Positions 3,275 through 44,180 of a DNA stretch of 44,180 nucleotides are shown one piece after another. How positions within the stretch are numbered: position 1 is the stretch's first letter; each line of letters opens with the position of its first letter. The stretch is taken from assembly GCA_944376825.1 (NCBI GenBank), contig CALWDY010000004.1:1-44180 (forward strand), in the 5' to 3' direction. A program made the position numbers and the translations under genes. Origin of the DNA: an uncultured Clostridia bacterium (GTDB lineage Bacteria; Bacillota; Clostridia; Christensenellales; UBA1242). Below the pieces are notes generated by a model. It did no database searches and was not told the DNA's origin. It saw nothing but the letters and a program-made list of their open reading frames with translations.

Positions 3275-3304
3275 AATCAAACTCTCCTTATAATAAAATA
3301 TGAT

Positions 3305-4852
3305 ATGAAATCTTTATTTAAAACAGTATTTATAATCATTTTTTTTACAGGAATAACCAGACTTTTAGGGTTTATTTTTAGAATTTGGCTTTCAAGAACC
3401 ATAGATCCCGAAGCATTAGGAGTATATCAAATTAGTTTTTCTGTTTTTATGGTGCTTTTAACACTTGTATCAAGTGGAATTCCACTTATTATATCCAGAC
3501 TTACTGCTAAACATATTGCAAATAAAGATAAAAAAGCCGAACATCAAACAGTTACCACTGCAATTGTAGTTGCTTTAATTTTAAGTTTAATTATATGTGC
3601 AATGGTTTTAATTTTCAACAAGCCTATTTCGCATATTTTTGCAGATGAAAGTTGTATGTCTATATTGTTAATGCTTTTACCTGCCCTTATATTTTCCAGC
3701 GTATACAGTGCAATAAAAGGAAATTTGTGGGGAAGAAACAAATATGTTTCATCTTGCAGTGCTGAACTTTTTGAACAAATTGTTAGAATGGTAATATGCT
3801 ATTTGCTTTTATGTGGTATTTGGCCTGTTTTTGATGGCGCCTCCGGTGCTGCTTTATCTTTGTCAATTGCTTGTATTTTTTCTTGTTTATTTGTTATCTT
3901 TTTGTACTTCAAGACAGGAGGGCGATTTGCAAAACCAAAATACTATAAAGAAATTATAAAAACAAGCACTCCAATAACTTTAATTAGAGTTGCGTCAAGT
4001 TTAATTCAACCCGTTGTTGCAATCATTATTCCCCTAAGACTTGTAACTGCTGGCTACACTTCTAGTCAATCATTAAGCTTGTTTGGAATTGCAACCGGAA
4101 TGACACTACCTCTTTTATTTATTCCAATGACAATAATTGGTTCACTTTCTTATGCACTTGTTCCAGATTTGTCATCTGCACTTGCAAAAAAAGATGAAAA
4201 TTACATATCTTCAAGAACAACAACATCCCTTGTTTTTTCGCTTTTTATTTCATTTTTTATAGTTCCCATTTTTATGGGAGCCGGCGAAAACATTGGTAGT
4301 TTTTTCTTTGATAATTCATACAGTGGAATACTGCTATCTAGTTCCGCATGGATAATAATACCGATGTGCATAACAAATATATCTTCATCAATATTAAATG
4401 CAGTTGGCCTAGAAATAAAATCTTTTAAAAATTATATTGTTGGCTCTATAATGATGCTTTTATGCATTTGGTTTTTGCCGAAATATATTGGGATTAATGC
4501 ATTGACTTATGCTATGGGAACTTGCTTTACAATGTCAAGCATTTTAAATTTAAGAATGATAAAAAAACAAGTATGTAAAACTTTAAATCTTAAAAAATAT
4601 TTCATAATGTTTGCATGCTTTTTAATTCCAACAGCATCCATTACATCGTTTTCTACCAATATTTTAAACAATTTTGTTCCTTTATTTTTTAATTTGGCAA
4701 TATCATGTACACTTGGTGCTTCATTCTTTATTTTATTATGCATGATTTTTAATGTGTTTAAATTTAGCACTGTTCTTATTTGGATTAAAAATAATAATTT
4801 ATTAAAAAATCATTTAAAACACAAAAAAACAACGATAAGGTTTAAAAAATAA
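3305..4852 (+). CDS. SpoVB/MurJ-like polysaccharide or lipid II flippase (MOP superfamily)
   Basis: The 515-residue polytopic protein has about 14 hydrophobic segments. Its N-terminal signature (FFTGITRLLGFIFRIWLS, then ALGVYQISFSVF) is typical of stage V sporulation protein B and related flippases that move undecaprenyl-linked precursors across the membrane. ATG 3305 is chosen because an earlier ATG (3263) lies inside the divergent LysM gene, and the MKSLFKT start fits the family. There is no ribosome site; a TATAAT box at 3289-3294 would give a leader of about 4 nt. It may act in spore cortex or cell-wall synthesis, but MurJ-type or exopolysaccharide transport cannot be excluded. Confidence 0.8.
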   Translation: MKSLFKTVFIIIFFTGITRLLGFIFRIWLSRTIDPEALGVYQISFSVFMVLLTLVSSGIPLIISRLTAKHIANKDKKAEHQTVTTAIVVALILSLIICAMVLIFNKPISHIFADESCMSILLMLLPALIFSSVYSAIKGNLWGRNKYVSSCSAELFEQIVRMVICYLLLCGIWPVFDGASGAALSLSIACIFSCLFVIFLYFKTGGRFAKPKYYKEIIKTSTPITLIRVASSLIQPVVAIIIPLRLVTAGYTSSQSLSLFGIATGMTLPLLFIPMTIIGSLSYALVPDLSSALAKKDENYISSRTTTSLVFSLFISFFIVPIFMGAGENIGSFFFDNSYSGILLSSSAWIIIPMCITNISSSILNAVGLEIKSFKNYIVGSIMMLLCIWFLPKYIGINALTYAMGTCFTMSSILNLRMIKKQVCKTLNLKKYFIMFACFLIPTASITSFSTNILNNFVPLFFNLAISCTLGASFFILLCMIFNVFKFSTVLIWIKNNNLLKNHLKHKKTTIRFKK

Positions 4853-6503: not shown

Positions 6504-9312
6504 TTAAAACCTTTTTTAAATATTTGCCGGTGTAACTTTTTGCCACTTTACAAATTTCTTCTGGACTTCCTTTTGCAACTATTTCTCCACCACCGTTTCC
6601 ACCTTCTGGACCAAGATCTATAATGTAATCTGCACACTTTATTACATCTAAATTGTGTTCAATAACAACCACTGTGTTATTATTTTGAACTAATTTCTTT
6701 AAAATTGCAATTAGTTTTTTTACATCATCAATATGAAGTCCAGTTGTTGGCTCGTCTAAAATGTAAATTGTTTTACCTGTTGAACGCTTTGCAAGTTCAG
6801 TTGCAAGTTTAACTCTTTGGGCTTCTCCCCCACTAAGTTCTGTTGCACTTTGTCCAAGTTTAATATAACCAAGTCCAACTTCGTAAAGAGCTTTTACTTT
6901 TGAGTATATGCTTGGTATATTTTCAAAAAAAGAAAGGGCGTCTTCAACTGTCATATCCAAAACTTGTGCAATTGTCTTTCCTTTGTATTTTACTTGCAAT
7001 GTTTCATTGTTATATCTTTTCCCTTTGCAAACTTCACAAGGAACCGTTATATCTGGCAAAAAGTACATCTCAATTTCTTTTACCCCTGCGCCTTCACACG
7101 CTTCACATCTTCCGCCTTTAACATTAAAACTAAACCTTCCCGCCGTATAGCCTCTTTGTTTTGCATCTTGTGTTTGTGCAAAGAGTTCTCTTATTGGAGT
7201 CCAAAGCCCTGTATAAGTTGCAGGATTACTTCTTGGAGTTCTGCCAATTGGTGCTTGATCTATACAAATTACTTTGTCTAATTTCTCTATATTTTTTATT
7301 TCTTTAAACTGACCCAATATTTGATTTGCACCATTTAGATTATTTGCCAAGTAAGGATAAAGGACACCATTTATTAAACTGCTTTTCCCACTGCCACTCA
7401 CACCAGTTATTGCAGTTAAAAGACCAATAGGTATATTAACATTTAAGTTTTTTAAATTGTTTTGCTTTGCTCCAATAATTTCAATAAATTCTTTTGGTTT
7501 TTTTCGTTCTTGGGGTGTTTCTATTTTTTCTTTTCCTGAAAGATATTTGCCTGTTATAGATTTATCACAACGCTCAACTTCTTCAACCGTTCCACTTACA
7601 ACAATTTCTCCGCCATGAATTCCCGCTCTTGGTCCAACATCTACAATATAATCGGCACTTTTTATTGTGTCTTCATCGTGCTCAACAACAATTAATGTGT
7701 TGCCCAAGTCTCTTAAATGCTTTAATGTTTTTAAAAGTTTATCATTATCTCTTTGATGAAGCCCAATGCTTGGCTCATCCAAAATATACAAAACACCAAC
7801 AAGTCCACTTCCAATCTGCGTTGCAAGTCTAATTCTTTGACTTTCTCCGCCACTAAGAGAATTGGCACTTCTATGCAATGTTAAATATCCAAGTCCAACA
7901 TCGTTTAAAAAATTTAATCTTGATTTTATTTCTTTTATTATAGGTTCACTAATTTTTGATTCTGTTTCATCAAATTTAATTTGATCCATATAATTTATTA
8001 AATCGCAAACACACATTGTGCTCATTTCATATATATCTTTTCCATTGATCTTTATGCTTAATGCTGAATGGTTTAGTCTTTTACCTTGACAACTTTTGCA
8101 TGGCATTTCTTTCATAAATTTACCAATTTCAAATTTTATAAATTCACTATTTGTTTCTTTATATCTTCTTTTTAAGTTGTTAATAATACCTTCAAAAGAT
8201 GCATTAAATTCCCCATTAAACCTTGCACTATGCATTTCCATTTTTACTTTTTCGCCTTTGTTTCCATACAAAACCAAGTCTAATTTGTCTTTTGGTAAAT
8301 CTTTTACTGGACAATTTAAATCTAACCCATAGTGCTTGCTAAGCATATTAAAATAAGTTCCCGCCATTGTTGTGGAATCCCCACTCCATCCATTTATTAA
8401 AAATGCACCTTGTTTTATTGAAAGATGAGAATTTTTTAAAACCAAGCCTTCATCAATATCTTCTGTATACCCTATTCCTGTGCAGTCAGGACATGCACCA
8501 AAAGGACTATTAAACGAAAACAATCTGGGCGTTATTTCTTCTAATGTCCAACCACATATTGGACAAGCAAATAAGGTACTATATAAACTCTTTTCTCCTT
8601 CGCACGAAACAACGCAAAGCCCCTCACTAAGTTTAACGGCATTTTCAACACTTTCAAAAAGTCTCGATTTAACACTATCATTTAAAACAAGTCTGTCAAC
8701 AACAACATTTATGTTGTGTTTTTTATTTTTGTCTAACTCTATTTTTTCATCAAGAGTGTATATAATGTCATCCACCTCAACTCTAACATATCCACTTTTT
8801 CTCAATTTTTCAAAAAGTTTTTCTTGTGCACCTTTTTTTGATCTTACAACAGGAGACATAATCATAACCTTGCTATTTTGTGGCAAAGAGATAACCTTTT
8901 CAACTATTTGATCAACTGTTTGTTTCTTTATTGGTTTGTTGCAATTTGGGCAATATGGAACACCAATTCTAGAATATAAAAGCCTGAAATAATCATATAT
9001 TTCTGTAACAGTGCCCACTGTACTTCTTGGGTTGTGATTTGTTGTTTTTTGGTCAATAGAAATTGAAGGAGAAAGTCCCTCAATAAGGTCAACTTCAGGC
9101 TTTTGACTTTGGCCTAAAAATTGTCTTGCATAGGAAGATAAAGATTCTATATATCTTCTTTGTCCTTCTGCAAAAATAGTATCAAACGCCAAAGTGCTTT
9201 TACCACTTCCGCTTACTCCTGTAAATACAATAAGTTTGTTTCTTGGTAAATCCAAATTAACATTTTTTAAATTATTTTCTCGTGCACCACGAATTTTAAT
9301 CATATTTTCCAT
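6496..9312 (-). CDS. uvrA: Excinuclease ABC subunit A
   Basis: This is the damage-recognition ATPase of nucleotide excision repair. It has two ABC modules, each with Walker A (GVSGSGKST near residue 32 and GVSGSGKSS near 640) and a signature motif (LSGGESQRIRLATQ and LSGGEAQRVKLATE). The zinc-binding CPNCN and CEACEG ... CEVCKGK clusters are intact. Length (938 aa) is normal. ATG 9312 (MENMIKIRGARENN) is preferred over the first in-frame ATG (9339), since an extended -10 (TGGTATAAT, 9330-9322) lies between them and the upstream ATG would not be transcribed. No ribosome site is visible. Confidence 0.97.
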   Translation of the reverse strand: MENMIKIRGARENNLKNVNLDLPRNKLIVFTGVSGSGKSTLAFDTIFAEGQRRYIESLSSYARQFLGQSQKPEVDLIEGLSPSISIDQKTTNHNPRSTVGTVTEIYDYFRLLYSRIGVPYCPNCNKPIKKQTVDQIVEKVISLPQNSKVMIMSPVVRSKKGAQEKLFEKLRKSGYVRVEVDDIIYTLDEKIELDKNKKHNINVVVDRLVLNDSVKSRLFESVENAVKLSEGLCVVSCEGEKSLYSTLFACPICGWTLEEITPRLFSFNSPFGACPDCTGIGYTEDIDEGLVLKNSHLSIKQGAFLINGWSGDSTTMAGTYFNMLSKHYGLDLNCPVKDLPKDKLDLVLYGNKGEKVKMEMHSARFNGEFNASFEGIINNLKRRYKETNSEFIKFEIGKFMKEMPCKSCQGKRLNHSALSIKINGKDIYEMSTMCVCDLINYMDQIKFDETESKISEPIIKEIKSRLNFLNDVGLGYLTLHRSANSLSGGESQRIRLATQIGSGLVGVLYILDEPSIGLHQRDNDKLLKTLKHLRDLGNTLIVVEHDEDTIKSADYIVDVGPRAGIHGGEIVVSGTVEEVERCDKSITGKYLSGKEKIETPQERKKPKEFIEIIGAKQNNLKNLNVNIPIGLLTAITGVSGSGKSSLINGVLYPYLANNLNGANQILGQFKEIKNIEKLDKVICIDQAPIGRTPRSNPATYTGLWTPIRELFAQTQDAKQRGYTAGRFSFNVKGGRCEACEGAGVKEIEMYFLPDITVPCEVCKGKRYNNETLQVKYKGKTIAQVLDMTVEDALSFFENIPSIYSKVKALYEVGLGYIKLGQSATELSGGEAQRVKLATELAKRSTGKTIYILDEPTTGLHIDDVKKLIAILKKLVQNNNTVVVIEHNLDVIKCADYIIDLGPEGGNGGGEIVAKGSPEEICKVAKSYTGKYLKKVLNG

Positions 9313-9321
9313 AACATAATA

Positions 9322-9330
9322 ATTATACCA
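9322..9330 (-). promoter_or_regulatory. Extended -10 promoter of uvrA, near-leaderless
   Basis: TGG-TATAAT on the minus strand is an extended -10 box that ends 9 nt before ATG 9312. The -35 position (TTTATT) is weak, as is common with extended -10 promoters. The predicted leader is about 2-3 nt. Confidence 0.55.
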
Positions 9331-9382
9331 CATTGCCAAGAATAAATAAATATAAATACAACTTTTTTAAAAATATTAAATA

Positions 9383-9411
9383 TTGACTAAAATATGAAAA
9401 TATTGTACTAT
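9383..9411 (+). promoter_or_regulatory. Leaderless promoter of the accessory two-gene cassette
   Basis: TTGACT (9383-9388), a 17-nt spacer and TACTAT (9406-9411) are followed by 6 nt and then ATG 9418. Transcription should begin at the A of the start codon. Confidence 0.65.
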
Positions 9412-9417
9412 AAACTT

Positions 9418-10206
9418 ATGAAGAGTTTAAAATTATTTCAAGAAAATGAAAAACAATATGACGATTTACTAAAAACACTTGTTTTACATGCAAAAGAAAA
9501 ATTGGGGAAAAATATATTCACTGATTTTCATTTGCCTTTAAATTTTAGTTTAAATAATCTTGATGATAGCATTTTTAAAAGTCGTTCCAATCAAACTTTG
9601 CCACTTCCATTTCCAAATGAAATGTTTGATTTATTTATAAAAATGCCAAAAAAAGCAATAAACAATGTTTATAATTTTAATAATAAAGGTAACAACATAA
9701 CTGGAATATATTTAATAGGAAAACACAATTCTAAATCCGTTTTATATGCATTAAGCGTTGTAAGATTTTTAGGATATAATGACTACCTTAATTTTTGTAT
9801 TAAATTAGATGTTTGTATTGCAGGAAAAACTTGGCTTAATTTATTGAGATTGGATTCTTTTGGTCCTGCCCACCCAAATTATTTTGAGGGTAAAAAGGTT
9901 TTTACAGATGAAAGTAGTGTACCATATATTCAAACTCCACACTTGCATGTCAATTCTCAAGAAAATCAAATATTGGCATACAATAGATTAAGTTATTCAC
10001 CAGCAATAGAATTAAAGTTTAATTTTGAAAATTTTAGAAGTGATGACAAACGCCTTTTAAAAAATTGCTTTCAATATTTTAAAGAGTTTGCTAATATAGA
10101 CATAGAAATAAACAAAAATATAGAGAAGGATTTTCACTACAATTTTAATAATCCATTATATGATTATGAGAAAATACAACAAGTAAATAGTGTTAAGGAG
10201 TTGTAA
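9418..10206 (+). CDS. Accessory protein with LLRLD..GPxHxN and PHLH motifs
   Basis: The 262-residue soluble protein carries, in order, a helical N-terminus, a segment around residue 75 (NNKGNNITGIYLIGKHNSKS), then NLLRLDSFGPAHPN near 140 and TPHLHVNSQENQ near 175. The spaced LLRLD/GPxHxN/PHLH pattern recalls an uncharacterised family that I would place, from memory and unchecked, near DUF6978; clustered His residues may bind metal. ATG 9418 is preferred over 9394 because the promoter's -10 box lies between them. The next gene follows with no gap. The pair sits against the grain between uvrB and uvrA, which suggests an acquired cassette (defence or toxin-antitoxin is only a guess). Confidence 0.6.
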   Translation: MKSLKLFQENEKQYDDLLKTLVLHAKEKLGKNIFTDFHLPLNFSLNNLDDSIFKSRSNQTLPLPFPNEMFDLFIKMPKKAINNVYNFNNKGNNITGIYLIGKHNSKSVLYALSVVRFLGYNDYLNFCIKLDVCIAGKTWLNLLRLDSFGPAHPNYFEGKKVFTDESSVPYIQTPHLHVNSQENQILAYNRLSYSPAIELKFNFENFRSDDKRLLKNCFQYFKEFANIDIEINKNIEKDFHYNFNNPLYDYEKIQQVNSVKEL

Positions 10207-20611: not shown

Positions 20612-21955
20612 ATGGAAAATATGATAGAAACAATAGAAAATTATGTAAAAAAACAATTTAACATATCTAATGTAACAAGTAAATTTAATCAAAATAAAAT
20701 TTTAAACAGAATAAGAGTGCAATTTGAAACTAAAAATGTAGATTTTAAATCAAAAATAAAATTTAAAAGAGTAATTTCTCTTGGCAAAAAAAGAAGTGTT
20801 GCATATTTTAGTAATAAATTCTGTTTAGAGTATTTCTTAACAAAATATTTTGTAAACAATATCAAAGACTTAAAAGATAAAGGTCTTGCAAACATGAAAA
20901 TTCCAACTCAAAAAATATTAAATTATTTAGATAATATATCATTTTTTGAAGAATTTACTGTTATACGATTTGATTTTAAAAACTATTATAATAATCTTTC
21001 AAGTTTATATGTATACGAAAAGTTTGTTAAAAATTATAAATTATCAACAATTGAAAGATTTTTTTTGGAACAATATGTAAAACAAATTCCCTACTGTTTT
21101 GCAGGACTTGCTACAAGCAATTATTTTGCAGAAATTATGGATAGTTATATAGAACAACAACTTGAAACCGAATTTAATAAAATAGGAGATGCCGTTTGCT
21201 TTCATTACGGGGATGATTTTAATATTTTTATAAATAAAAAATTAAATAAAGACTTTTCATTAAATATAATACAATCAAAAATCTTTGAAATATTTCATGA
21301 TGATACAATATCTTCTAATATTTTGAACAAAGAAAAAATACATACCGAAGGCACAAAATTTACCTTAATGACCAATGAAGATTTGCCTATTACGTTCAAT
21401 TTTTTGGGTTACGAATATTTGATATACAATGAAAACAATAAAATTGATTACACATATGGCGTTGTTGATTATACTATTAATAAATACAAACAAAACCTTA
21501 AAGATGTTTTATGCAAATATAAAAACAACATTGAAGCACAACGAATTATTGTTGTTATGCAAACCCACAAAATTTCTTATCCAAACCCTTCAATTTTTAA
21601 TAATGGCAAAAACATTTCTCCTAGATTTAATGAGCAAACTAAATGTTTAAAATTTAAACCAAATAAACTAAACAAAAAAACAAAAGATTTCTTGCAAAAT
21701 GTTATTTATGATTGCTATAAAGAACTTGATTATAAATTACCATACTTTTTAGCCGATTTAAGCCCAAATTCTAAATATAATTTGTTTTCAAATCTAATAA
21801 AAGGTAAATTTTTATTTTTTGATAACAAAAAAGGCATTGAAAAAAATGTTCTAATTAAAATGGCAAAACCATTTGATAAAAATAAAAACTTTGACACATT
21901 AACTTATAACCAACTCGCTCTATACTTGGCAGAAAAAACAAAAATTAACTATTAA
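20612..21955 (+). CDS. Atypical reverse transcriptase with YGDD active site
   Basis: The 447-residue protein has RT motifs in order: A at residues ~117-134 (VIRFDFKNYYNNLS, Asp 121), B near 160-180 (IPYCFAGLATSNYFAEIMDS, lacking the usual PQG), C at 199-202 (YGDD), D/E near 262-270 (FNFLGYEY). A ~175-residue C-terminal region has no domain I recognise. There is no group II maturase/HNH domain, no retron-type neighbour RNA and no DGR repeats. The closest class is the unknown-group/abortive-infection RTs, some of which are antiphage systems (inference). TATAAT (20606-20611) abuts the first ATG, so the ATG at 20621 may be the real, leaderless start. The gene stands alone and ends in a terminator. 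Confidence 0.85.
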   Translation: MENMIETIENYVKKQFNISNVTSKFNQNKILNRIRVQFETKNVDFKSKIKFKRVISLGKKRSVAYFSNKFCLEYFLTKYFVNNIKDLKDKGLANMKIPTQKILNYLDNISFFEEFTVIRFDFKNYYNNLSSLYVYEKFVKNYKLSTIERFFLEQYVKQIPYCFAGLATSNYFAEIMDSYIEQQLETEFNKIGDAVCFHYGDDFNIFINKKLNKDFSLNIIQSKIFEIFHDDTISSNILNKEKIHTEGTKFTLMTNEDLPITFNFLGYEYLIYNENNKIDYTYGVVDYTINKYKQNLKDVLCKYKNNIEAQRIIVVMQTHKISYPNPSIFNNGKNISPRFNEQTKCLKFKPNKLNKKTKDFLQNVIYDCYKELDYKLPYFLADLSPNSKYNLFSNLIKGKFLFFDNKKGIEKNVLIKMAKPFDKNKNFDTLTYNQLALYLAEKTKINY

Positions 21956-22166: not shown

Positions 22167-25100
22167 TTAATCAAATTTTTGTTCTTCAATTTTCATGTCA
22201 ATATAATCTTTAAATGTTTTGCAATTTGCAAAATGTTTGATTCCTTCAATTAGAATATTGTCTGGGAATTCTTCTAATCTCATTCCTTCAATCCATTCTT
22301 TGCTTATTCCATCCAATAATGAACGGTTGTAACATTTCTTTTCAACATCTTTAACATATTTCATATTTTCAATTTTATACATATTGTTAAATGCTGTTGA
22401 TGTTAAAATTCCACTTGTGTAAATATTCATATGATATTTACTAAATATATTTGTGTATTCAACTTTTTTGTTTATAACTTTTTTAGAAACAATTGTAACA
22501 ATTTTACCATCATCTCTAACAACTCTTGTTCCAATTGGACATCCCCAAGCTTGGTTTGAACAAATTGGGCAGAACATTTGTTTGTCATAATTAAACACTG
22601 CGTGATCTTGAACAACTTTAAGTTTTGAACCATCGCTAAATTTAATTAGTGTATATTTATCTGCAACTTTTTCCTTTTGAATCCAAAGAGCATTAACAAA
22701 TTCAAAACATCCTTTATCAAAGTTCCAAACAAGAAGTTTGTCTTTGTATGTTAGTTTCTTTGCTTTCTTTCTTCTTAACTTTTTCTTCTTTTCATCCCAT
22801 ATTGTTACATAAGTGTCCGATGTAAAACAACCAGAATAATTATTCTCTTTATCTACATACCATATGTATACACCATATTCACCCACATAATAAGTATTAA
22901 ATCCAACAGACTTTGCATTAACCATATCCACATCCATAGTTGCACTAGAACTTCCATTAATTATAATACCACCACCAGCAATTGTGTCCATAAATTCTAT
23001 ATTTAATACGTCTTGTGGCGTTAAGTCGCCTGCCAAAATTATTGCACTTGATTCAGTAAAGTCGCTATTTGCCACATAAATTCCAACATCCTTTGTTGTT
23101 CCACCTTTTCCTGTTATTGCTGGACTTCCGCTTAATGTTAGCCTGTTACCATAAGGCAACCAAATCGCATAACCCCCCCTTGAACTAATGGTTACATTTC
23201 CACTAATATTTAATTTTCCCTGAAATTGACCCACAATGTAAATTGTAGAAGATGTTGATGTTGTTGATTTATTATTAATTGTTAATGTAAAATTATTGTC
23301 TGTTGTAAGGGTTAATTTGGCAGTAGATATAATATTAAATAGATATGTTCTAACGGTACCTTGAATACCAACATTTCCAAGTGGTTTTATTGTAAAATTT
23401 TTAGAAATTGTAATTGCAGCTGATATTGTAGTTGTTCTAAGAAGTTCTATTGTTGCACCAGTAGTTGCCGAAGTTATTGCACTCGTTAATGATGTATAGT
23501 ATGTGTCTCCAATTCTTGCATAATAACCTGTTCTCACAAGGATTGAATTTTGGTTAGAACTTGAAATTGCGCTGTGAGGAGTGCTTGAAGTTGATGTGCT
23601 TTTATAGAAGGTTGTAGGTAAAGATATTGATGTTACCACTGTTTTTGGTGCGTGTATTACTTTAAGTGCATTGCATCCAGTAAACATATCCGTAGTTGTT
23701 GCTCCGCTTTTGATTGTAAAGCCTGACAAATTTAATTCTGTCAATGCACTACAATTATAGAACATAGAATTCATTCTTGCAACACTGGATGTATCAAAAT
23801 TGCTTAAATTTAAAATGGTAAGAGAACTGCAATAACCAAACATCGAAACCATATTTTTAACACTGGATGTATCAAAATTGCTTAAATTTAAAGAGATAAG
23901 AGAATTGCAATTTTGGAACATACAAGCAACACTTGTAACCTCTGACATATAAAAATTGCTTAAATCCAGCTGTGTTAAAGAAGTACAATTTCCAAACATA
24001 AAATTCATATCTGTAACTTTAGAAGTATCGAAATTTCTTAATGTTATGTTTGTCAATTTTGTTAAATGCCCTGAAGGCTGTATAGCGCTAATAAGATATG
24101 AACTATCCTGTGGAGCGTATATAGTCGCAGGTGAATAGATTTTTAGCGTTGTTCCGCTAAGGTATGCATATACACCAAAGCATGAAGTATATGAAGTAGA
24201 CCAGTCGGTTGTACTAAATTCATCTGTTGCACCAATTTGATACAATGTTCCCGTTGTTGGTTTTGTTGATGTAAATTCTATTGATGTTAGTGATGTTGCG
24301 TTAGGTATTTTGGTTTTCCAATTTTTACTTAAATAACTTGCCATTCCATTTGCTCTTTTAATTGTTAGACTTTCAAAGTAGCTTGTGATTGAAGGACACG
24401 CCCTTGGTGGATTTTCAATTGTATAAAAATCACTAAATGGCAACGCAATTGATGTTCCAACCGTTTGTGGTGTGTGTATTGTTGTAAGAGATGCACAACC
24501 ATACAGCATGCTTGTTGTTGTTACTCCACTATTAATGTAGAAACTTAATAAATTTAATGTGGTTAAATTGCTACACGCAACAAACATTGATTCCATATTT
24601 GTTACTTTTGATGTATCAAAATTACTTAAATTTATATCATTTAAACAATTACACCCATAAAACATTTGTTGCATATTTAAAACGGAAGAAGTGTTAAATG
24701 AACTTATCTCTAACTGTAATAATGACCTGCATTGCCAAAACATATAAGACATGTTTGTAACTTTGCTTGTATTAAATTTATTTAAATTTAATGTTTCTAA
24801 TACCATACATTCATAAAACATATACGACATATTTGTAACTTTGCTTGTATCGAAATTATCAAATGTTATACTATACACATCCAAATTCGCAAACAAACCC
24901 GAACTATCCTGTGGTGCATAAATTGTTACTGGTGAATAAACTTTTAAAGTTGTTCCATTAAGATATGCGTATACCCCAAAACAATTTGTATTTGCTTCTG
25001 TCCAATTTGCACTGCTTGTTTCATCCGTTGCCCCAATTTGAATTGGTGTTCCGGATAGACCTGTGTTGTCGTTTGTAAATTCTATTGATGTGAGCGATAA

Positions 25101-28100
25101 TGTATCAGCAATTTGACTTTGCCAACCGTTATGCAAATAACTTGCCATTCCGGTTGTTCTTTTAATTGTTAATCCTTCAAAATCACTTGTAATTGAAGTG
25201 CAATTTCTTATATTATTGGTTTCAAGTGTATAGAAATCACTAAATGGCAACTCAATTGATGCTCCAACAGTTTGTGGTGTGTGTATTGTTGTAAGAGCTG
25301 AACAACCTTCAAACATTGCAGTAGAATCTGTAAGTTGGGCCATATTCCAGTTAGACATATTTATTTCTGCTAAATTTGAGCAATTCCAAAACATAAATTG
25401 TGTATCTTTTAAGTTTTGTGGTGCAAAGTTTATAAAATTAAATTCATATAAAGTATTGCAACCTTGAAACATGGATGAAGCATTTTGCAAATTTGAAAAA
25501 TCCATATAAGTGATTATATTTAAATCCAAACTTCTACAACCCATAAACATTCCCGACATATTTGTTACTTTATCAGTTACAAAATCGTCTCCCACCGACA
25601 CACTCCTCAAATTATAGCATTCCGTAAACATTGAGGACATGTTTGTTACTTTTCTTGTATTAATAAACAAGGATAATGCAGACAAAGAACTACATCTTGA
25701 AAACATAAGCGTCATGTTCGTTACATTTGATGTATCAAAAAACGAATAAAGTCCAAATGAACCAGGCTGACCAAAAGTTTCAACTTTTAATGATTGACAC
25801 CCCACAAACATTCCTTGCATATTTTGTGTTTTTGAAGAGTTCCAATTATTAAACATAATAGATGTAACATTTCCCAACTCCTCAAATAAATATGAACAAT
25901 CTTGTGGTGCATAAATTGTTACTGGTGAATAAATTTTTAGTGTTGTTCCACTAAGGTATGCATAAACACCAAAGCAACTCGTGTTGCCATCTGCCCAATA
26001 TGCACTGCTTGTTTCATCTGTTGCCCCAATTTGAATTGGTGTTCCAGTTAGACCTGTGTTATCGTTTGTAAATTCTATTGATGTGAGCGATGATACATTT
26101 GAAATTTGGTTTTTCCATCCGTTATGCAAATAGCTTGCATTTTCTCTCCAAATTGCATATAGGGTTATGTTTGCTGTTTCGTTATATATGTAACTTGTGC
26201 CCGCATTTTGATAGTTTCCTTCCCATGCTGACGCACTTGTACTCCATCCAACAAAAGTGTAACCGCTTCTTGTAAAGGTTTTGCTTGGTTTTGTTGTGAA
26301 AGATTTACCATAGTTTACAGTTTGTGTCGCATCTGCTTCACCACTTCCGTTTGATTTATAAGTTATTGTAAATTGTAATGATGCTATATATATTCTTTTG
26401 TTTGTTGTATCTAGTTTTGCAACATAATTTGTGTTTTCAATGCTAACCTTGTTTAAAATTTGTTGTGCATAAGCAGAATATACACTGTCACTAAACTGAA
26501 CCAGTGTTGGGTTGCCTTCATACGTTGATGTGCCTGATGCAACAACAATACTGTTTAATGAAACGCTAGAAGAATTGATGTTTATTACGCTATCACCATT
26601 AGTTGTAACATATATATCTCCAACAGTTGAATTATTCTTTAAATCAAGATTGTTATTTGTTAATGATAGATCTGTATTTATTGATTTTCCATAGAATGTT
26701 CCACCATTTATTTCAATTCCTAAAGACGTTCCATCAATTGTATAAAAATCACCAATTGGCTTATATGTTCCACCGTCAACAATAATTTTTGAGCCAAAAA
26801 CACTTATAATTCCGTTGTATGTAGAACTTTCATATGCCTTAACATTGTCATCACTTATATCAGTTCTTAATGTTAATGAACCTGTAGTAAATATTAAACA
26901 TGCAAATTTGTTTGCTGAAAATTCACCACCACTTATTGACGCATTTCCACCAAGAACAAGAACTGCTTCTTTTACATCATTATTAGAAATTCTACATTCC
27001 ATAAATCGTAAAGAATGGCTATCACTTCCCGACAAATACGCCAAAAAACCAACTTTATTTTCTCTAAATGTTGTTCCGCCAATTGTAACATGATTTGTAG
27101 CATATAACAATGCAGAATCTACATAAGTTTCACATATATTATTATCTAAATATGAATCTTTAATTCTAACGGTATCCTCACTATAAATTAAATGTGAATT
27201 TTCATGCAAAGTGTTTTGCGAAATACTAGAAGTAGAGATTACAATTCCACCTATTTCATTTGTTTCTGCAAGCATTGCTATAATAACAGCTGTCATCGAG
27301 TTCAATGTGTTATTTTCAATAGTCGTGTCTGTTAATGAATTTCTATAAACATTTAAAATTAAGCCTACACCTCCGTCGCCAGGTGAGTTCATCTCAAACT
27401 TTGTCATTGATACATTTTCAAAAAACAATGTGCCTATATTTACAAAAACGTTTGAAGAATATATTTGGTTATTTCCATCAAAAGTAATTTTTCTTGAAGA
27501 AGATGAACCAATTTTTACAACAACTGAACTTGGTGTTATTTGTGGCTGATTAATAAAATCAAGATTGTCACTCCCAATAACAAACATCGGTGCAGATGTG
27601 TTTGTATAGAAGATTGTTGTAGCCACATCAGCAGTTATTGATACATTTTTGTATATAAATTGAGTATTTTCAAGTGTAATTGAAGATGCAACAATTGTTA
27701 TTGTTTCTTGGTCTGCCACATTTAGTATAGCTTCTTCTAGGGTTTTATAATATGTTGAACCGATTCTTGCTTCAGCAGGAGACCATTGTGCTGTAAGAGT
27801 TACATTTCCATAACAATTTGCAGGAATATTTAATTGTGTATTTGAAATTAAATTTGGCAATATTGAAGAGTGTTGCCCTGTTCCCCAAGCAACAGTCCAT
27901 TTTTCAAACACAAAATTTGCTCTATTTGGAATTGGAATTGTAATTTTTTGCGCTGTAGATTTCATCGTATATGAAGGATTTGTTACAGCATTTCCACCAT
28001 TTTCGTCAATATCAATTATATAATTAGTTAATGTCCATTTTGCATAAAGTGTGGTTGGCTGTGCTATATCCCAATTTCTTTTACTTGCCATGCTTGCTGT

Positions 28101-31100
28101 GTAATATTGTGTGCCACCACCGTTAATTTGAGTGAAATACCCACCAAATGTGTAACCTGTTCTTGTTGGTGCTGTTGCCGTTGGCATTGCCCTACCATAG
28201 GTTGCAGTAACAGAGTCGGTTCCACCTGTTCCACTTTGTTTGTCAAGAGTTACTACAAAAGTATTTGCAGTAATTCTAAAGTTTGCAGTAACTGTTGTAT
28301 ATTTTGTTATTGTCCCACTTAAAGGACTCCAATTGCTAAACGAATGAGTGAACCCTGTTGGATTTGCCTTTGGTGTTGCTGTTGACTTTTCGGTTTTTGA
28401 TTGACGAGTAAGTGTTAGCACATTTGCACTTGTGGTAAAAGTTGAACCACTTATAACATTTATTGTTGCAGGACTTACTGTTCCGTAATTTGAATTGTTA
28501 CTATTTATTGTTAATGTGTATACATTTACTGATGTGGATTTGTTGTCACTTGGTGTTGTATAGTTTGTTGAATCGCTATTAATTGCTCTTACATAAATTG
28601 TTCTTGTGCCTGTTGCCTCAATTATTGTGCTTAAATAATCAATTCCACTTGTTGCACTTGTCCAAGTTGTTCCGTTTATGCTTATTTCATAACCAGTTGC
28701 ATTTGTTGCGCCACTCCAAGTTACAACACCATCTTTATCAACGCTTATAGTTGTTGGTGCTGTTACTGCTCCTTTGCTTATAGTAAACCTTACAGCTGGT
28801 GTTGTTGCACCGTTATAGTTTGTTGTTGCTGATACAACTGCATAAATATAGTATGTTCCAACGTTTAAATATGTACTGCTTGTAACACTAGTCCATGCAG
28901 TTCCACCACTATTTGAATTTGTTGTATTATAATAATATGTTACGCTACCATTTCCAGTGTTTCCATTTATTGATGGCTCTGATTTTGTTCCACCATATGT
29001 GTATCCCGACATTGAAACCGTAGGGGCTATGTCTGCCTTATCGATTGTAAGTGTAAAAGTTGCACTTGCAGAAGTATAATTTTGCGTTGCAGCACAAGTT
29101 ACCGTTACTTTGATAACTGTTCCTGCATTAATTGTGCTTAAATTTGAAATTGTAACTGTTGTTCCAACAACAGAAACCGTTGCAGTTGCATTATTGTCGG
29201 TTGCCGACAATGCGCCACCATGACTTGATGCCACACTAAATGCTTTTGTTGCCGTTTTGTAAACAACGCTTGATGATGTTGGATCTAATGTTATATATCC
29301 TGTTGCTTGTATTACAGTTAATGTTCCGTTTATGTATGTAATAGCATAGTTGTTTGTTACATTGGTTGTGCCACTCATAACAACTGCTCCACTTGGAACA
29401 TTATCTACGCTTCCAACATTTGTTATGGTTCCAGTAATTGTACACGAAGATATTGTGTGTCCAGACAAAAGTCCCGAAGATGTAAATGTGTTTTTAGTTA
29501 ACGGTGTTCCATTATAAACTTTGCTTGCACTATCCGCTGTTATTGTTAATGCCTTTTTATCCACGTTAACAGTAATAGTTTCTGTTGTTGCAGACAAGCC
29601 ATTATATGTGCTTGTTGCTTTTACTTTTACCGTGTATGAGCCAACGCTTGCACCGGCATTGAATATTAAAGTTACAGAAGATGTTGTTGCTGATGAATTT
29701 GAAAGTGCAAAATAACTGCCTGTAGCGCCAACAAGTGAATATATCCACCTTCCACCACCACCACTTGCTGTTATGGTTGCAATATCTGTTGTTTGATAAC
29801 CATATGTTAAGGTTGCAGTTGTTTTTGAAGGAGAAACTGAAACACCAAGTGAATTCCACCTTGCATAAAGGGTTTTTGCTGTTGTTGGTGTGTATGATTG
29901 TCCACCATCGCCAATTTTTGTTCCACCAGTTGCAGAATCATACCATCCAGCAAAAGTGTATCCTGTTCTTGTTGGAGTTGGCAAAGTTACACTACCCAAT
30001 GTCCAATTTGCATAAAGCGTAACAGTTAAGTTGTTTATATATGTTAAATTTTTAACAATTTGTTGATTTTCATAAACTTTTGCACCACCAGCAGTTGTTG
30101 CCCAACCATTGAATGTTGCAGTAGCGGTTGCGGTTGAATTTGTTGAACCACTATAATTATAGTTATATGTAACCAAATAACTTCTTGTATATCCATTTGC
30201 TGTTAGTTGTTTTTCAACATCATATGTGTGTGTTGAATTTGCTGTTGTTCCGGCTGTATGGCCATTTCCGTTATATGTTACAGTATATGTGTTTGCTGTC
30301 CACATAGCATAAAGTGTGGTTGGCTGTGCTATATCCCAATTTCTTTTACTTGCCATGCTTGCTGTGTAATATTGTGTGCCACCACCGTTAATTTGAGTGA
30401 AATACCCACCAAATGTGTACCCTGTTCTTGTTGGTGCCGAAGCTGTTGGCATTGCACTGCCAAAGATTGCAGTAACAGAGTCGGTTCCACCTGTTCCCTT
30501 TTGTTTGTCAAAAGTTATTTTGTATTCATTAGCAGTTGCACTTGCCGTTAGGGTCACCGCCCCTGCTGGCATATTAAATGTATAACTTGCATTATTGCTG
30601 TTTGGCAATAGTGTTGCATTGCTTGATGTCCACAAACTGAATGTATATCCAGCACTTACTGTTGCAGTTGCCGTTATATTTTGAGCATAATCATATGTGC
30701 CATTCCCCGATACCGATGAGATACCTGTTGAATTTTTTAATGTTAATATATAACTATCCCTAGTATAATAGTAATTTACTACTGTTGAACCATCTGCATT
30801 AATTATCACTGTTTTTGCAGTTGGTGCTGTAAATCCCGTATAAGATTTTACACTTGGCGTAACACTTGCACCAGTTGTGCCGGTTAAAGGTTCCGTGTCT
30901 GCCAAATCCCAATGAGATGCGGTGCTTTCGCTTGGGGAACTAATGCCAATTTTTTCTTGATAGTGGTTTACTGTGTAAGGCGTTCCGGTGTTAGCATTCC
31001 ACCTTGCGTAATAAGTTTTATTTCCAGTTGTTGATCCTGCTGGTATAGTTGTTACAACCGATCCACTAAATGATGCATTTTCATACCAACCAGCAAAAGT

Positions 31101-32090
31101 ATAACCAACTCTCTCTATATTTGCAGATGTTGGAAGGGTTATTGTTGCACTTTCTATTGTGTATTTTGTTGTAGGGGTAAAACTTGCTTTCCAAGCACCA
31201 TCATTTAAAATGTATGATATTGTGTACTCAACAACACTCCAGTTTGCAGTAAGAGTTATGTTTCCATAACAATCTGTTGGAATAGAAAGTGATGTTGAAG
31301 TTCCGCTTATAGTTGGTTTTAACGAATCGATTGCATGGTTTGAAGAATCAGTCCAACTAACTGTCCAACCAACAAATGTATATCCATTTCTAGTTGGGTT
31401 TGGAATTGTTTTTGATTGTTCTGATCCAACTGTGTATGTATTGTCATAAGCCCCTATGTTTCCACCATTTGGCTCGATGGTGATTGTATAAGAAAGGGCG
31501 TTCCATCTTGCGTAAAGAGTTGTGTTGTCTGCAACTTTATATACAGTTTCGCTTGTGTATTTAGTCCCCCCAATTGTATTATCATACCACGCATCAAAAG
31601 TGTAACCACCCCTTGTTGGAGTTGGAAGCGGTCCAACTTGTTGGTCGTATGTAACTTGAATAGACTCAGGCGAAACACTTCCGCCATTTGCATTAAATGT
31701 CAAATTGTAATTATTTGCAGTCCATTTTGCATAAAAGGTTTGCGTGCCTCTTGTTTTTGCAGGAATTGATGTAACTGTGGTCGCAAGAGATTTATCACTG
31801 CACCAAGAATCAAAAGTATATCCTGTTTTAGACGCATACGTGTTTCCATCCGGCAAAACAAATGCAACTGTATCGGAATATGTATAACTGGTTAAAGTTT
31901 CTCCTTTTGCCTCACCGCCATTAAGTTCTAAAACAAGCGGATAGGAATCTTGTCCAAATTGAATTCCACCACTTGTTCCAAAATTAAGAGTTGATAAAGC
32001 ATAAACACCCGTTACAGTAGCGAGCGCAATTGTTACCATAGATATAAAAACCATTAATGCTGTTTGAAATTTTTTTGACATATTTGACAT
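22167..32090 (-). CDS. Giant repeat-built surface protein ending in a Hint (Hedgehog/intein) domain
   Basis: The protein is about 3,307 residues. An N-terminal export helix (~6-32) is followed by tandem InlB-type/Listeria-Bacteroides repeats (GYTF.GW ... LYA.W) to ~745. Next come MBG- and Ig-like Thr/Ser-rich units (~745-1350, e.g. KALTITADSASKVYNGTPL), another InlB-like unit, a beta-helix-like region (~1440-1900) and one more InlB repeat. Three BspA/DUF285 blocks follow (~1985-2820, repeated FDTSKVTNMSYMF), then a second beta-helix-like part and a C-terminal Hint domain from Cys 3088 (GCFTSDTYVTIWD; SDGSKLKVVQDHAVF; YHMNIYTSGILTS) with a ~60-residue tail. There is no LPXTG. ATG 32090 has AGAGG 7 nt upstream and is preferred to the first ATG, 32156. 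Adhesion or host/cell contact is likely; Hint self-processing is inferred. Confidence 0.85.
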   Translation of the reverse strand: MSNMSKKFQTALMVFISMVTIALATVTGVYALSTLNFGTSGGIQFGQDSYPLVLELNGGEAKGETLTSYTYSDTVAFVLPDGNTYASKTGYTFDSWCSDKSLATTVTSIPAKTRGTQTFYAKWTANNYNLTFNANGGSVSPESIQVTYDQQVGPLPTPTRGGYTFDAWYDNTIGGTKYTSETVYKVADNTTLYARWNALSYTITIEPNGGNIGAYDNTYTVGSEQSKTIPNPTRNGYTFVGWTVSWTDSSNHAIDSLKPTISGTSTSLSIPTDCYGNITLTANWSVVEYTISYILNDGAWKASFTPTTKYTIESATITLPTSANIERVGYTFAGWYENASFSGSVVTTIPAGSTTGNKTYYARWNANTGTPYTVNHYQEKIGISSPSESTASHWDLADTEPLTGTTGASVTPSVKSYTGFTAPTAKTVIINADGSTVVNYYYTRDSYILTLKNSTGISSVSGNGTYDYAQNITATATVSAGYTFSLWTSSNATLLPNSNNASYTFNMPAGAVTLTASATANEYKITFDKQKGTGGTDSVTAIFGSAMPTASAPTRTGYTFGGYFTQINGGGTQYYTASMASKRNWDIAQPTTLYAMWTANTYTVTYNGNGHTAGTTANSTHTYDVEKQLTANGYTRSYLVTYNYNYSGSTNSTATATATFNGWATTAGGAKVYENQQIVKNLTYINNLTVTLYANWTLGSVTLPTPTRTGYTFAGWYDSATGGTKIGDGGQSYTPTTAKTLYARWNSLGVSVSPSKTTATLTYGYQTTDIATITASGGGGRWIYSLVGATGSYFALSNSSATTSSVTLIFNAGASVGSYTVKVKATSTYNGLSATTETITVNVDKKALTITADSASKVYNGTPLTKNTFTSSGLLSGHTISSCTITGTITNVGSVDNVPSGAVVMSGTTNVTNNYAITYINGTLTVIQATGYITLDPTSSSVVYKTATKAFSVASSHGGALSATDNNATATVSVVGTTVTISNLSTINAGTVIKVTVTCAATQNYTSASATFTLTIDKADIAPTVSMSGYTYGGTKSEPSINGNTGNGSVTYYYNTTNSNSGGTAWTSVTSSTYLNVGTYYIYAVVSATTNYNGATTPAVRFTISKGAVTAPTTISVDKDGVVTWSGATNATGYEISINGTTWTSATSGIDYLSTIIEATGTRTIYVRAINSDSTNYTTPSDNKSTSVNVYTLTINSNNSNYGTVSPATINVISGSTFTTSANVLTLTRQSKTEKSTATPKANPTGFTHSFSNWSPLSGTITKYTTVTANFRITANTFVVTLDKQSGTGGTDSVTATYGRAMPTATAPTRTGYTFGGYFTQINGGGTQYYTASMASKRNWDIAQPTTLYAKWTLTNYIIDIDENGGNAVTNPSYTMKSTAQKITIPIPNRANFVFEKWTVAWGTGQHSSILPNLISNTQLNIPANCYGNVTLTAQWSPAEARIGSTYYKTLEEAILNVADQETITIVASSITLENTQFIYKNVSITADVATTIFYTNTSAPMFVIGSDNLDFINQPQITPSSVVVKIGSSSSRKITFDGNNQIYSSNVFVNIGTLFFENVSMTKFEMNSPGDGGVGLILNVYRNSLTDTTIENNTLNSMTAVIIAMLAETNEIGGIVISTSSISQNTLHENSHLIYSEDTVRIKDSYLDNNICETYVDSALLYATNHVTIGGTTFRENKVGFLAYLSGSDSHSLRFMECRISNNDVKEAVLVLGGNASISGGEFSANKFACLIFTTGSLTLRTDISDDNVKAYESSTYNGIISVFGSKIIVDGGTYKPIGDFYTIDGTSLGIEINGGTFYGKSINTDLSLTNNNLDLKNNSTVGDIYVTTNGDSVININSSSVSLNSIVVASGTSTYEGNPTLVQFSDSVYSAYAQQILNKVSIENTNYVAKLDTTNKRIYIASLQFTITYKSNGSGEADATQTVNYGKSFTTKPSKTFTRSGYTFVGWSTSASAWEGNYQNAGTSYIYNETANITLYAIWRENASYLHNGWKNQISNVSSLTSIEFTNDNTGLTGTPIQIGATDETSSAYWADGNTSCFGVYAYLSGTTLKIYSPVTIYAPQDCSYLFEELGNVTSIMFNNWNSSKTQNMQGMFVGCQSLKVETFGQPGSFGLYSFFDTSNVTNMTLMFSRCSSLSALSLFINTRKVTNMSSMFTECYNLRSVSVGDDFVTDKVTNMSGMFMGCRSLDLNIITYMDFSNLQNASSMFQGCNTLYEFNFINFAPQNLKDTQFMFWNCSNLAEINMSNWNMAQLTDSTAMFEGCSALTTIHTPQTVGASIELPFSDFYTLETNNIRNCTSITSDFEGLTIKRTTGMASYLHNGWQSQIADTLSLTSIEFTNDNTGLSGTPIQIGATDETSSANWTEANTNCFGVYAYLNGTTLKVYSPVTIYAPQDSSGLFANLDVYSITFDNFDTSKVTNMSYMFYECMVLETLNLNKFNTSKVTNMSYMFWQCRSLLQLEISSFNTSSVLNMQQMFYGCNCLNDINLSNFDTSKVTNMESMFVACSNLTTLNLLSFYINSGVTTTSMLYGCASLTTIHTPQTVGTSIALPFSDFYTIENPPRACPSITSYFESLTIKRANGMASYLSKNWKTKIPNATSLTSIEFTSTKPTTGTLYQIGATDEFSTTDWSTSYTSCFGVYAYLSGTTLKIYSPATIYAPQDSSYLISAIQPSGHLTKLTNITLRNFDTSKVTDMNFMFGNCTSLTQLDLSNFYMSEVTSVACMFQNCNSLISLNLSNFDTSSVKNMVSMFGYCSSLTILNLSNFDTSSVARMNSMFYNCSALTELNLSGFTIKSGATTTDMFTGCNALKVIHAPKTVVTSISLPTTFYKSTSTSSTPHSAISSSNQNSILVRTGYYARIGDTYYTSLTSAITSATTGATIELLRTTTISAAITISKNFTIKPLGNVGIQGTVRTYLFNIISTAKLTLTTDNNFTLTINNKSTTSTSSTIYIVGQFQGKLNISGNVTISSRGGYAIWLPYGNRLTLSGSPAITGKGGTTKDVGIYVANSDFTESSAIILAGDLTPQDVLNIEFMDTIAGGGIIINGSSSATMDVDMVNAKSVGFNTYYVGEYGVYIWYVDKENNYSGCFTSDTYVTIWDEKKKKLRRKKAKKLTYKDKLLVWNFDKGCFEFVNALWIQKEKVADKYTLIKFSDGSKLKVVQDHAVFNYDKQMFCPICSNQAWGCPIGTRVVRDDGKIVTIVSKKVINKKVEYTNIFSKYHMNIYTSGILTSTAFNNMYKIENMKYVKDVEKKCYNRSLLDGISKEWIEGMRLEEFPDNILIEGIKHFANCKTFKDYIDMKIEEQKFD
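28042..28252. repeat. Intragenic direct repeat, copy A
   Basis: This encodes an InlB-type unit (TGGTDSVTA ... GYTFGGYFTQINGGGTQYYT). The first ~120 nt are essentially identical to 30307 onward, exactly 2,265 nt (755 codons) away, and the rest is only slightly diverged. The arrangement fits recent duplication or gene conversion. Confidence 0.85.
30307..30517. repeat. Intragenic direct repeat, copy B
   Basis: This is the second copy of the InlB-type unit. Recombination with copy A would remove or add 755 codons in frame, a simple route to length variation of the surface protein. Confidence 0.85.
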
Positions 32091-32169
32091 ATTTTTACCT
32101 CTTAAAAGTTGCAAGAAATTGTGTGTGCGCGCACGGCGTGTGAAAACCATGCACAAATCTTACAATCAC

Positions 32170-42982: not shown

Positions 42983-43278
42983 TCAAAAAAAAATTCAAAA
43001 ACAATTAAACATAAAAAACAATTTACATATGTGCAAGTAATAATTGACAAAATTTTTACAATTTGCTATACATATAAAGGTGTTATAAAAATAGGATCAC
43101 CGATAATCAAAAAAATTAACAAATATCTTTTAATTAACAATAAAACAAATCAGCGATCCATCATTTAATTCGTGCTAATGTATCATAGCCAATCACCCAA
43201 CATTAGCAATTTAAAAACACCCAAATTTACCCCCTCCCCCCAAAAAAAACACGCGAAAATTTACTCAAAAACCGAATA
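42983..43278. other. Gene-free leader region before the tRNA-like array
   Basis: It holds a strong plus-strand promoter (43044-43072) and an inverted repeat TGCTAATGT/ACATTAGCA (43173-43181 and 43200-43208). The left arm matches the start of the odd array modules (GCTAATGTA), so it may be a decayed module 0. The stretch after it (43209-43278) resembles the B/C spacers of the array. No coding frame is convincing. Confidence 0.6.
43044..43072 (+). promoter_or_regulatory. Near-consensus promoter driving the tRNA-like array
   Basis: Perfect -35 TTGACA (43044-43049), a 17-nt spacer and TATACA (43067-43072). The predicted start near 43079 reads through all seven modules and the tRNA to the terminator at 44041, with no internal terminator (U-tract hairpin) visible. 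Confidence 0.7.
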
Positions 43279-43279
43279 T

Positions 43280-43958
43280 CCTAATGTAGCCAGTCGGTAG
43301 TGCACCGCCTTAGAAAGACAAGGAAAACGCATTTTTAAGCAATCTTACAACTAAATATTCGCTCCATTTTGGAGCTATGCTGATGTGGCACAGTCGGTAG
43401 CGCACCGCCTTGGTAAGATAAAAAATGGCAAATTTTACCACTTAAAAAACAATAAAATTTAACTCAAAAACTGAATATGCTAATGTAGCACAGTCGGTAG
43501 TGCACCGCCTTGGTAAGACAAGGAAAACGCATTTTCAAGCAATCTTACAACTAAATATTCGCTCCGTTTTGGAGCTATGCTGATGTGGCACAGTCGGTAG
43601 CGCACCGCCTTGGTAATTTTAAAATAACCAAAATTTACACCTCAAAAAACACTCAAAAATTTAATAAAAATTGCTTATGCTAATGTAGCACAGTCGGTAG
43701 TGCACCGCCTTGGTAAAACAAAAAATGGCAAATTTTACCACCCGAAAAACAACATAAAACATTCTCAAATTTCATTATGCTTATGTGGCGCAGCAGGCAG
43801 CGCACAGCATTGGTAAGATACGGTTTTACCATAAAAATTAACCTAAAAAATTGAATATGCTGATGTAGCTCAATCGGTAGAGCACTTCCTTGGTAAGACA
43901 AGCAATTGGCAATTTTAAGCAAAATTACAACTGAATAGTTACTCCATTTTGGAGCTAT
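43280..43958 (+). repeat. Array of seven tRNA-Thr 5'-half modules with exact 100-nt period
   Basis: Modules start at 43280, 43379, 43479, 43579, 43679, 43779 and 43859, before the intact tRNA at 43959. The conserved D-loop block (CAGTCGGTAG or variant) falls at 43291, 43391, 43491, 43591, 43691, 43791, 43871 and 43971. The first six are exactly 100 nt apart, then 80, then 100. Each module matches tRNA positions 1-39 and stops after the anticodon loop (CCTTGGTAAG). Spacers are of two kinds: A (after modules 1, 3, 7; contains CTCC(A/G)TTTTGGAG) and B/C/D (after 2, 4, 5, 6). Odd modules carry TAATGTAG and even ones TGATGTGG, giving a 200-nt higher-order unit. No integrase is nearby. Confidence 0.85.
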
Positions 43959-44034
43959 GCTGATGTGGCACAGTCGGTAGCGCACTGCCTTGGTAAGGCA
44001 GAGGTCACGGGTTCAAGTCCCGTCATCAGCTCCA
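43959..44034 (+). tRNA. tRNA-Thr (anticodon GGU), CCA encoded
   Basis: The 76-nt gene has a perfect acceptor stem GCTGATG/CATCAGC, discriminator T and encoded CCA. The D-stem GCAC/GCGC has one A-C mismatch (12:23). Anticodon stem CTGCC/GGCAG carries loop TTGGTAA (GGT = Thr), and the T-arm ACGGG-TTCAAGT-CCCGT is perfect. It is the only complete copy, at the end of the module array. Confidence 0.93.
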
Positions 44035-44040
44035 ATCATT

Positions 44041-44090
44041 AACCTTTGAAAAACCCTTATATTTAGGCACTTTCAAAGGTTTTTTATTTT
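44041..44090 (+). terminator. Terminator of the tRNA-Thr array unit
   Basis: AACCTTTGAAA (44041-44051) and TTTCAAAGGTT (44071-44081) form an 11-bp perfect stem with a 19-nt loop, followed by a T-tract. It lies 6 nt after the tRNA CCA. Confidence 0.88.
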
Positions 44091-44125
44091 CTAAAATTTT
44101 TGATAAATTTTTACTCGAAAAATAT

Positions 44126-44157
44126 TTGCTGTCAATTTTTGGAGCAATTGCTGTCAA
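44126..44157. repeat. Short direct repeat downstream of the tRNA
   Basis: TTGCTGTCAA occurs at 44126-44135 and 44148-44157 (22-nt step) with GGAGCA between, close to the 3' side of the tRNA. Read on the minus strand each contains TTGACA. This could be part of an attachment or promoter region cut by the window end. Confidence 0.35.
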
Positions 44158-44180
44158 AAAAGAGACAAAAAAATAGACCG

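Follow-up and report, generated by a model that had tools for sequence, protein, structure and literature searches.

A tandem array of tRNA-Thr 5′ halves as a probable record of repeated element insertion into one tRNA gene

The window, meaning the whole 44,180-nt stretch of DNA from an uncultured Clostridia bacterium that was analysed here, closes with a tandem array of tRNA-Thr 5′ halves. This array is very probably the record of repeated, site-specific IME or ICE insertion into one tRNA-Thr(GGT) gene, with the left ends of successive elements stacked one behind another. As read from the genome sequences of relatives, each component of such a process is present: the target, the common core, a left end carrying a whole tRNA, the integrase, displaced halves at both ends and elements in tandem.

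In the proposed mechanism, crossover would take place within the 7-bp anticodon loop TTGGTAA, with the integrase presumably cutting at the borders of this motif. The left end of many elements would be laid out as TTGGTAA, a spacer of ~60 bp, a complete tRNA-Thr, a terminator, repeats and int. Insertion at the outer core would push the 5′ half of the resident gene upstream and leave the resident 3′ half at the far end of the element, while the incoming element would supply a whole, self-matched tRNA to be read from the host promoter. The junctions expected in excised circles are right end-TTGGTAA-GACAAGC for the outer core and right end-TTGGTAA-GGCAGAGG for the inner core. Because the next element enters the newly brought tRNA, the halves would come to nest like brackets. 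Element bodies would later be lost one by one, with the short left-end units staying behind as a tandem array and the tRNA remaining intact. By bringing a whole tRNA, an element would plausibly avoid the formation of hybrid tRNAs with mismatches where the tRNA-Thr of the host differs.

Architecture of the array

All array features lie on the plus strand. Seven tRNA-Thr 5′ halves, starting at 43280, 43379, 43479, 43579, 43679, 43779 and 43859, are followed by one full tRNA-Thr(GGT) at 43959..44034 (ARAGORN; Rfam RF00005, 68.8 bits), which is probably element-borne. The common 7-bp core, TTGGTAA, is the tRNA-Thr anticodon loop, lies at 43990-43996 in the intact gene, and ends at 43316, 43416, 43516, 43616, 43716, 43816, 43896 and 43996, which gives a core-to-core spacing of 100 bp five times, then 80 and 100 bp. 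The regular run of halves ahead of a full tRNA-Thr, as reported in the preliminary description, was therefore confirmed by ARAGORN, Rfam and the core positions. Its list of a recurring sequence block holds as a pattern, but at ~43791 and ~43871 the sequence is CAGCAGGCAG and CAATCGGTAG rather than CAGTCGGTAG, and its count of seven halves is correct but passed over one further, decayed half at ~43174. This decayed 5′ half (43174..43210, end approximate; repeat family D4) is probably the oldest remaining, and its TTYRTTCGT+5′-half junction is intact at three other loci (L005, L004 and L011).

The first of the seven displaced halves (43280..43316, 37 nt) has its core mutated to TTAGAAA. It is followed by a 100-bp unit (43317..43416) made of a type-A spacer (43317-43378) and a 5′ half (43379-43416), and by a second (43417..43516) with a type-B spacer (43417-43478) and a 5′ half (43479-43516), a near-identical copy of which occurs in G042, from another family of the order. 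Three further 100-bp units carry a type-A spacer with a half at 43579-43616 (43517..43616), a type-C spacer with a half at 43679-43716 (43617..43716) and a type-B-like spacer with a half at 43779-43816 (43717..43816). An 80-bp unit (43817..43896), with a type-D spacer (43817-43858) and a half at 43859-43896, recurs in other genera, for example in G033. The terminal type-A spacer (43897..43958) is assigned to the left end of the resident element on the basis of the link between terminal spacer type and left-end type described below.

Upstream of the array, at 43044..43072, is the promoter-like TTGACA-17-TATACA noted in the preliminary description, which would be that of the original host tRNA-Thr gene; it is absent from the list of the consensus scanner, and three sister species (G015, G001 and G003) share both hexamers unchanged. 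The strong terminator placed after the tRNA is likewise present, as a terminator-like inverted repeat (44034-44051/44071-44088) whose 19-nt loop is beyond the scanner's limits. Beyond the tRNA, 44035..44180 would be the left end of an integrative element, with the terminator followed by GCTGTCA repeats, and the contig end cuts off the rest. The window's genome holds no second GGT (TTGGTAA-type) tRNA-Thr, the other two matches carrying TTTGTAA and TTCGTAA loops.

Elsewhere in the window are an IS200-type Y1 transposase (400-855, minus strand; PF01797), a 447-aa ORF (20612-21955, plus strand) that looks reverse transcriptase-like by eye from its HYGDD motif, and a 3329-aa protein (22167-32156, minus strand) with many InlB/BspA-like repeats, whose C-terminal stretch resembles a Hint/intein-type domain by eye.

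Occurrence in related genomes

A DNA search of 60 related genomes found single units, spacer included, at 96-97% identity in other genera and in another family of the order. Among 309 genomes of the family that were surveyed for the tandem pattern, at least 117 carry it and a reversed control pattern has no matches, which rules out chance. Units of 86-116 bp account for 117 of the 309 genomes and 19 of 42 genera, while 29 genomes have shorter units and 10 have longer ones. The same plan recurs at the loci of relatives: a 5′ half ending exactly at TTGGTAA, a spacer, a further 5′ half and finally an intact tRNA. MAG assemblies often break at these repeats, and some genomes are present in two collections (for example, G275 and G345); units were made distinct by exact sequence.

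At the orthologous locus, beside holB-like and PSP1-like genes, arrays differ or are absent among sister species, and G003 has none. Absence of the array in relatives, combined with no transcript beyond the mature tRNA, had been named beforehand as what would point to inert debris; what is found is an array that varies between sisters and is missing from that one. At L028 (G003:C17), a 3.2-kb element without an integrase is flanked by an intact tRNA-Thr on one side and by the remnant of a 3′ half on the other, with the holB-like gene on the opposite side of the tRNA relative to the window, as if inverted. Another variant, in G017 (L026 rc 3150-3900), consists of two 79-bp units, a ~200-bp spacer with terminator-like sequence and an intact tRNA. 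The same kind of array is also seen at tRNA-Ile(GAT), with related integrases, units of 101-102 bp and unrelated spacers (L087 rc 1-600, L086 rc 8700-9300, L088 rc 7400-8000 and L108 rc 9300-9900).

Units as probable left ends of integrative elements

The junctions between tandem elements show to which partner the spacer and tRNA belong. At L077 (rc ~20770-20890), the right end of an element joins directly to TTGGTAA, spacer, 5′ half, TTGGTAA, 3′ half and the next element, and at L279 (position 17092) the right end of one element abuts the spacer, 5′ half, core and 3′ half of the next. Since the spacer and whole tRNA sit right at the junction of tandem elements, they belong to the element. Shared sequence identity spans TTGGTAA at all junctions. 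The terminal spacer type is linked to the left-end type of the element, with none of 5000 permutations reaching the observed mutual information (the result is the same for left ends clustered at 78% and 85%, while 70% merged most types), whereas the second-last spacer of the same arrays is not linked to it (p about 0.07-0.13). The preliminary description was right to suggest that insertion at the anticodon loop made the array grow, and right in its idea of a mobile array.

In many relatives, a tyrosine integrase of ~465 aa (PF00589) lies just downstream of the tRNA and is oriented toward it. It contains a phage-integrase domain and Phage_int_SAM_3, with Phage_int_M also present. The best PDB matches of the integrases are the Int chains of 6emy, 6emz and 6en0, which we take to be Tn1549 Int, and the integron integrase IntI4 is a far weaker match. 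An integrase-alignment scan of named genomes returned 53 loci, nearly all from uncultured Clostridia or Christensenella MAGs, and at least one upstream unit is present in 19 of the 22 integrase loci whose complete tRNA-Thr lies clear of the contig edges. Mobility genes carried by the elements include a MobL relaxase (L022, L274 and L275) and a TraG/VirB4-like T4SS ATPase (L023). One complete element of ~13.6 kb (L275:600-14300) carries the MobL relaxase together with an Eco47II-type restriction-modification system and HamA with a helicase (Hachiman-like defence).

The window's contig stops at 44180, 146 bp past the tRNA, so its own integrase and far end would lie beyond. These last 146 bp are identical (146/146) to L207, from another genus, where the matching left end is followed first by a 228-aa ORF and next by a tyrosine integrase; from this identity, the window most likely ends just inside such an element. 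Two contigs of the same genome with integrase fragments (C28 and C33) were considered as the missing part of the element and found no support.

Nesting of the displaced halves

For elements that each carry a complete tRNA, a match is predicted between the final 5′ half and the 3′ half beside it, and none for the halves that were displaced. In 86 of 94 arrays, all 12 Watson-Crick stem pairs form between the last 5′ half and its neighbouring 3′ half, whereas the next displaced half forms all 12 in 14 of 75; compared within arrays, the last half pairs better than the displaced half in 60, equally in 13 and worse in 2. The 3′ half stranded at the far end behaves in the complementary way: in 9 of 11 arrays its better partner is an upstream displaced half and not the last one, with one tie and one failure (G096); the elements concerned span 1.5-47 kb, and two of the nine (G157 and G212) have the remnant on another contig. 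The far-end remnant is followed by an ordinary terminator in G341, G343 and G344, which is what the end of the original gene should show, and the G215 remnant pairs with the second-last half, which is the match that nesting predicts for the innermost element. Relatives carry both a regenerated tRNA at one end and a matching displaced fragment at the other.

Stepwise spacing and a proposed helical phase

Unit length was proposed at the outset to be constrained, and the lengths of 216 distinct units (185 distinct spacers) uphold this. They fall at 67-68 (2 units), 78-80 (32), 89-91 (10), 94 (2), 97-102 (146), 110-113 (14), 119-124 (8) and 131 bp (2), with none of the 216 at 69-77, 81-88, 103-109, 114-118 or 125-130 bp, so that the classes cluster near 68, 79, 90, 100, 111, 121 and 131 bp with a period of about 10.6. 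The best period is 10.55 bp (R=0.78) for 80 clusters at 90% identity, which are not fully independent because some spacers share ancestry, and 10.7 bp (R=0.62) for 16 spacers less than 60% alike (R=0.61 at 10.5, Rayleigh p=0.002). Spacer pairs separated by a single indel differ by 1 nt (248 pairs), 2 nt (1), 10-12 nt (14) or 21-22 nt (2), and none differs by 3-9 nt. Most often a 37-nt half is partnered by 63 nt of spacer and a 38-nt half by 62 nt, which indicates that the core-to-core distance is the quantity kept.

These steps suggest that the helix phase between adjacent cores (~10.6-bp steps, one DNA helix turn each) is under selection, either because a recombination complex would bridge neighbouring cores or because out-of-phase neighbours would resist deletion. 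At 10.5 bp per turn, all classes would be about half-integral, a reading that hinges on the exact helical repeat; the cores would then lie on opposite faces, which could shield units from deletion. The A-tracts of the spacers are themselves phased, every 11-12 bp (about 11.5; z 8.8 over 16 unlike spacers), and would be predicted to curve the spacer DNA. Because their period differs from that of the lengths (about 10.6), slippage of A-tract repeats could add to the 11-nt indels.

On a more tentative reading, to which we give somewhat less than an even chance, the spacer is a distinct attachment-site arm, whose curved, helically phased DNA holds two usable cores in register. One integrase could then replace the whole essential tRNA of the host through the outer core or the 3′ half only through the inner core, and the elements could thus enter hosts with differing tRNA-Thr. 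Were this true, the arrays would preserve a history of insertions that can be read off, and would amount to an experiment of nature on helical twist.

Alternative explanations

The ~100-bp units could instead be independent mini-cassettes, resembling those of integrons, that integrases move in trans in the form of very small circles or of single-stranded DNA. Near-identical units do occur across genera and families, and arrays often have more units than element bodies, but the type of the terminal unit goes with the element that follows it, the 3′ half of that element is matched by the last unit's own 5′ half, and units appear as left ends at element-element junctions. A double-stranded circle of 100 bp is also very stiff, and we consider this origin unlikely. 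Tandem duplication of the tRNA gene by replication slippage or homologous recombination, with no element insertion at all, would account for the 200-bp A+B segment at 43291-43490, which is repeated at 87% identity and makes some local duplication or exchange likely; as the source of the array it is extremely improbable, given that spacers and 5′ halves within an array are often unlike and yet common to other genomes, that junctions always fall at the anticodon loop beside integrative elements, and that the halves nest. Several mobile or repeat systems were also set aside. A SINE-like retroelement, as the preliminary description had put forward, would leave reverse-transcribed copies at variable target sites with target duplications, whereas here there is a single precise target and the units are at element ends; a retro-mechanism through the reverse transcriptase-like ORF was rejected, this ORF having no Pfam or PADLOC match and lying 22 kb off. 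Single-strand insertion by the IS200-type transposase was likewise rejected because the junctions fit a tyrosine integrase instead. The identical repeats and unique spacers of a CRISPR array are not matched by diverged tRNA halves with spacers that recur across genomes, nor an integron cassette array by AT-rich spacers of weak structure that lack attC features and integrases that are not IntI-type.

A functional non-coding RNA or regulator made of tRNA halves, an idea of the preliminary description, is very doubtful compared with insertion of elements into the tRNA gene. The units are likely to be co-transcribed, judging from the conserved promoter motif, and long spacers in units of 119-131 bp (L178, L179, L125, L136, L152, L175 and L180-L183) also speak for RNA function. 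Those starting GGAAAAACCAAGTAAA contain a ribosome-binding site and a tiny ORF (e.g., ATGCAACTTTAA) within a hairpin and have more structure than the remaining spacers (z -2.6 to -3.4, two listed), and this combination looks like a leader or regulatory piece. However, spacer structure is weak overall (mean z -0.58, RNA folding of 74 representatives), the displaced halves are mismatched and decaying, and sister species have the array absent or different at the same locus. A search of the array against Rfam matched tRNA as the sole family, and the conserved secondary structure beyond tRNA that would mark a structured non-coding RNA family was not found. The proposed reservoir, decoy or regulator is accordingly not upheld, and the exact spacing goes with DNA helix phase rather than with RNA.

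Comparison with known systems

In the literature found, such arrays are undescribed, though subscription journals were mostly outside its coverage, which makes this no proof of absence; the features that we did not find described are a left end that has two cores and carries a whole tRNA, the stacking of such left-end units and their spacing in steps. They suggest that a single-copy tRNA gene can be replaced repeatedly by mobile-element alleles without loss of function. The arrays would form an ordered fossil record of insertions, and their stepwise spacing would be natural evidence for a helix-phase constraint on the attachment region of a tyrosine recombinase.

It is well known that tRNA genes harbour islands with anticodon-centred sites, that the tRNA is regenerated and that such islands can form tandem arrays (PMC4383910; PMC8371274). 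The Islander set comprises 2083 anticodon-centred sites, with 125 tandems of at least two and 4 of at least three, and 3760 3′ against 159 5′ displaced fragments (PMC4383910). These islands share with the elements described here an anticodon-loop crossover, which is probable for the latter, the island-regenerated tRNA, the displaced fragment at the far end and the tandems. However, they carry a tRNA fragment, whereas many of the elements here carry a whole tRNA behind a spacer and a second core, as a result of which the host gene has its two halves displaced and short units derived from left ends accumulate. With a 2-kb minimum, 100-bp units would escape Islander, and because the minimum length and tRNA filters of standard island finders miss such units, similar arrays elsewhere may be overlooked.

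The internal eliminated sequences of Paramecium also have a ~10-bp length periodicity, attributed to DNA looping in the excision complex (PMC3464196). They share only this length logic with the array units, and differ in being eukaryotic and excised by a domesticated piggyBac transposase, with no tRNA and no array. Integron cassette arrays likewise arise through a tyrosine recombinase that inserts short units in tandem at a single site, but the arrays here have no attC structure and no cassette genes, their integrase is not IntI-type, and their units are element ends. The elements described here resemble ICEs and IMEs with an Int of the Tn916/Tn1549 type in their integrase and in the MobL relaxases or T4SS ATPase on the element. 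In contrast to these, they are confined to one fixed target, which is the tRNA-Thr(GGT) anticodon loop or, in a related group, tRNA-Ile(GAT), and form arrays there.
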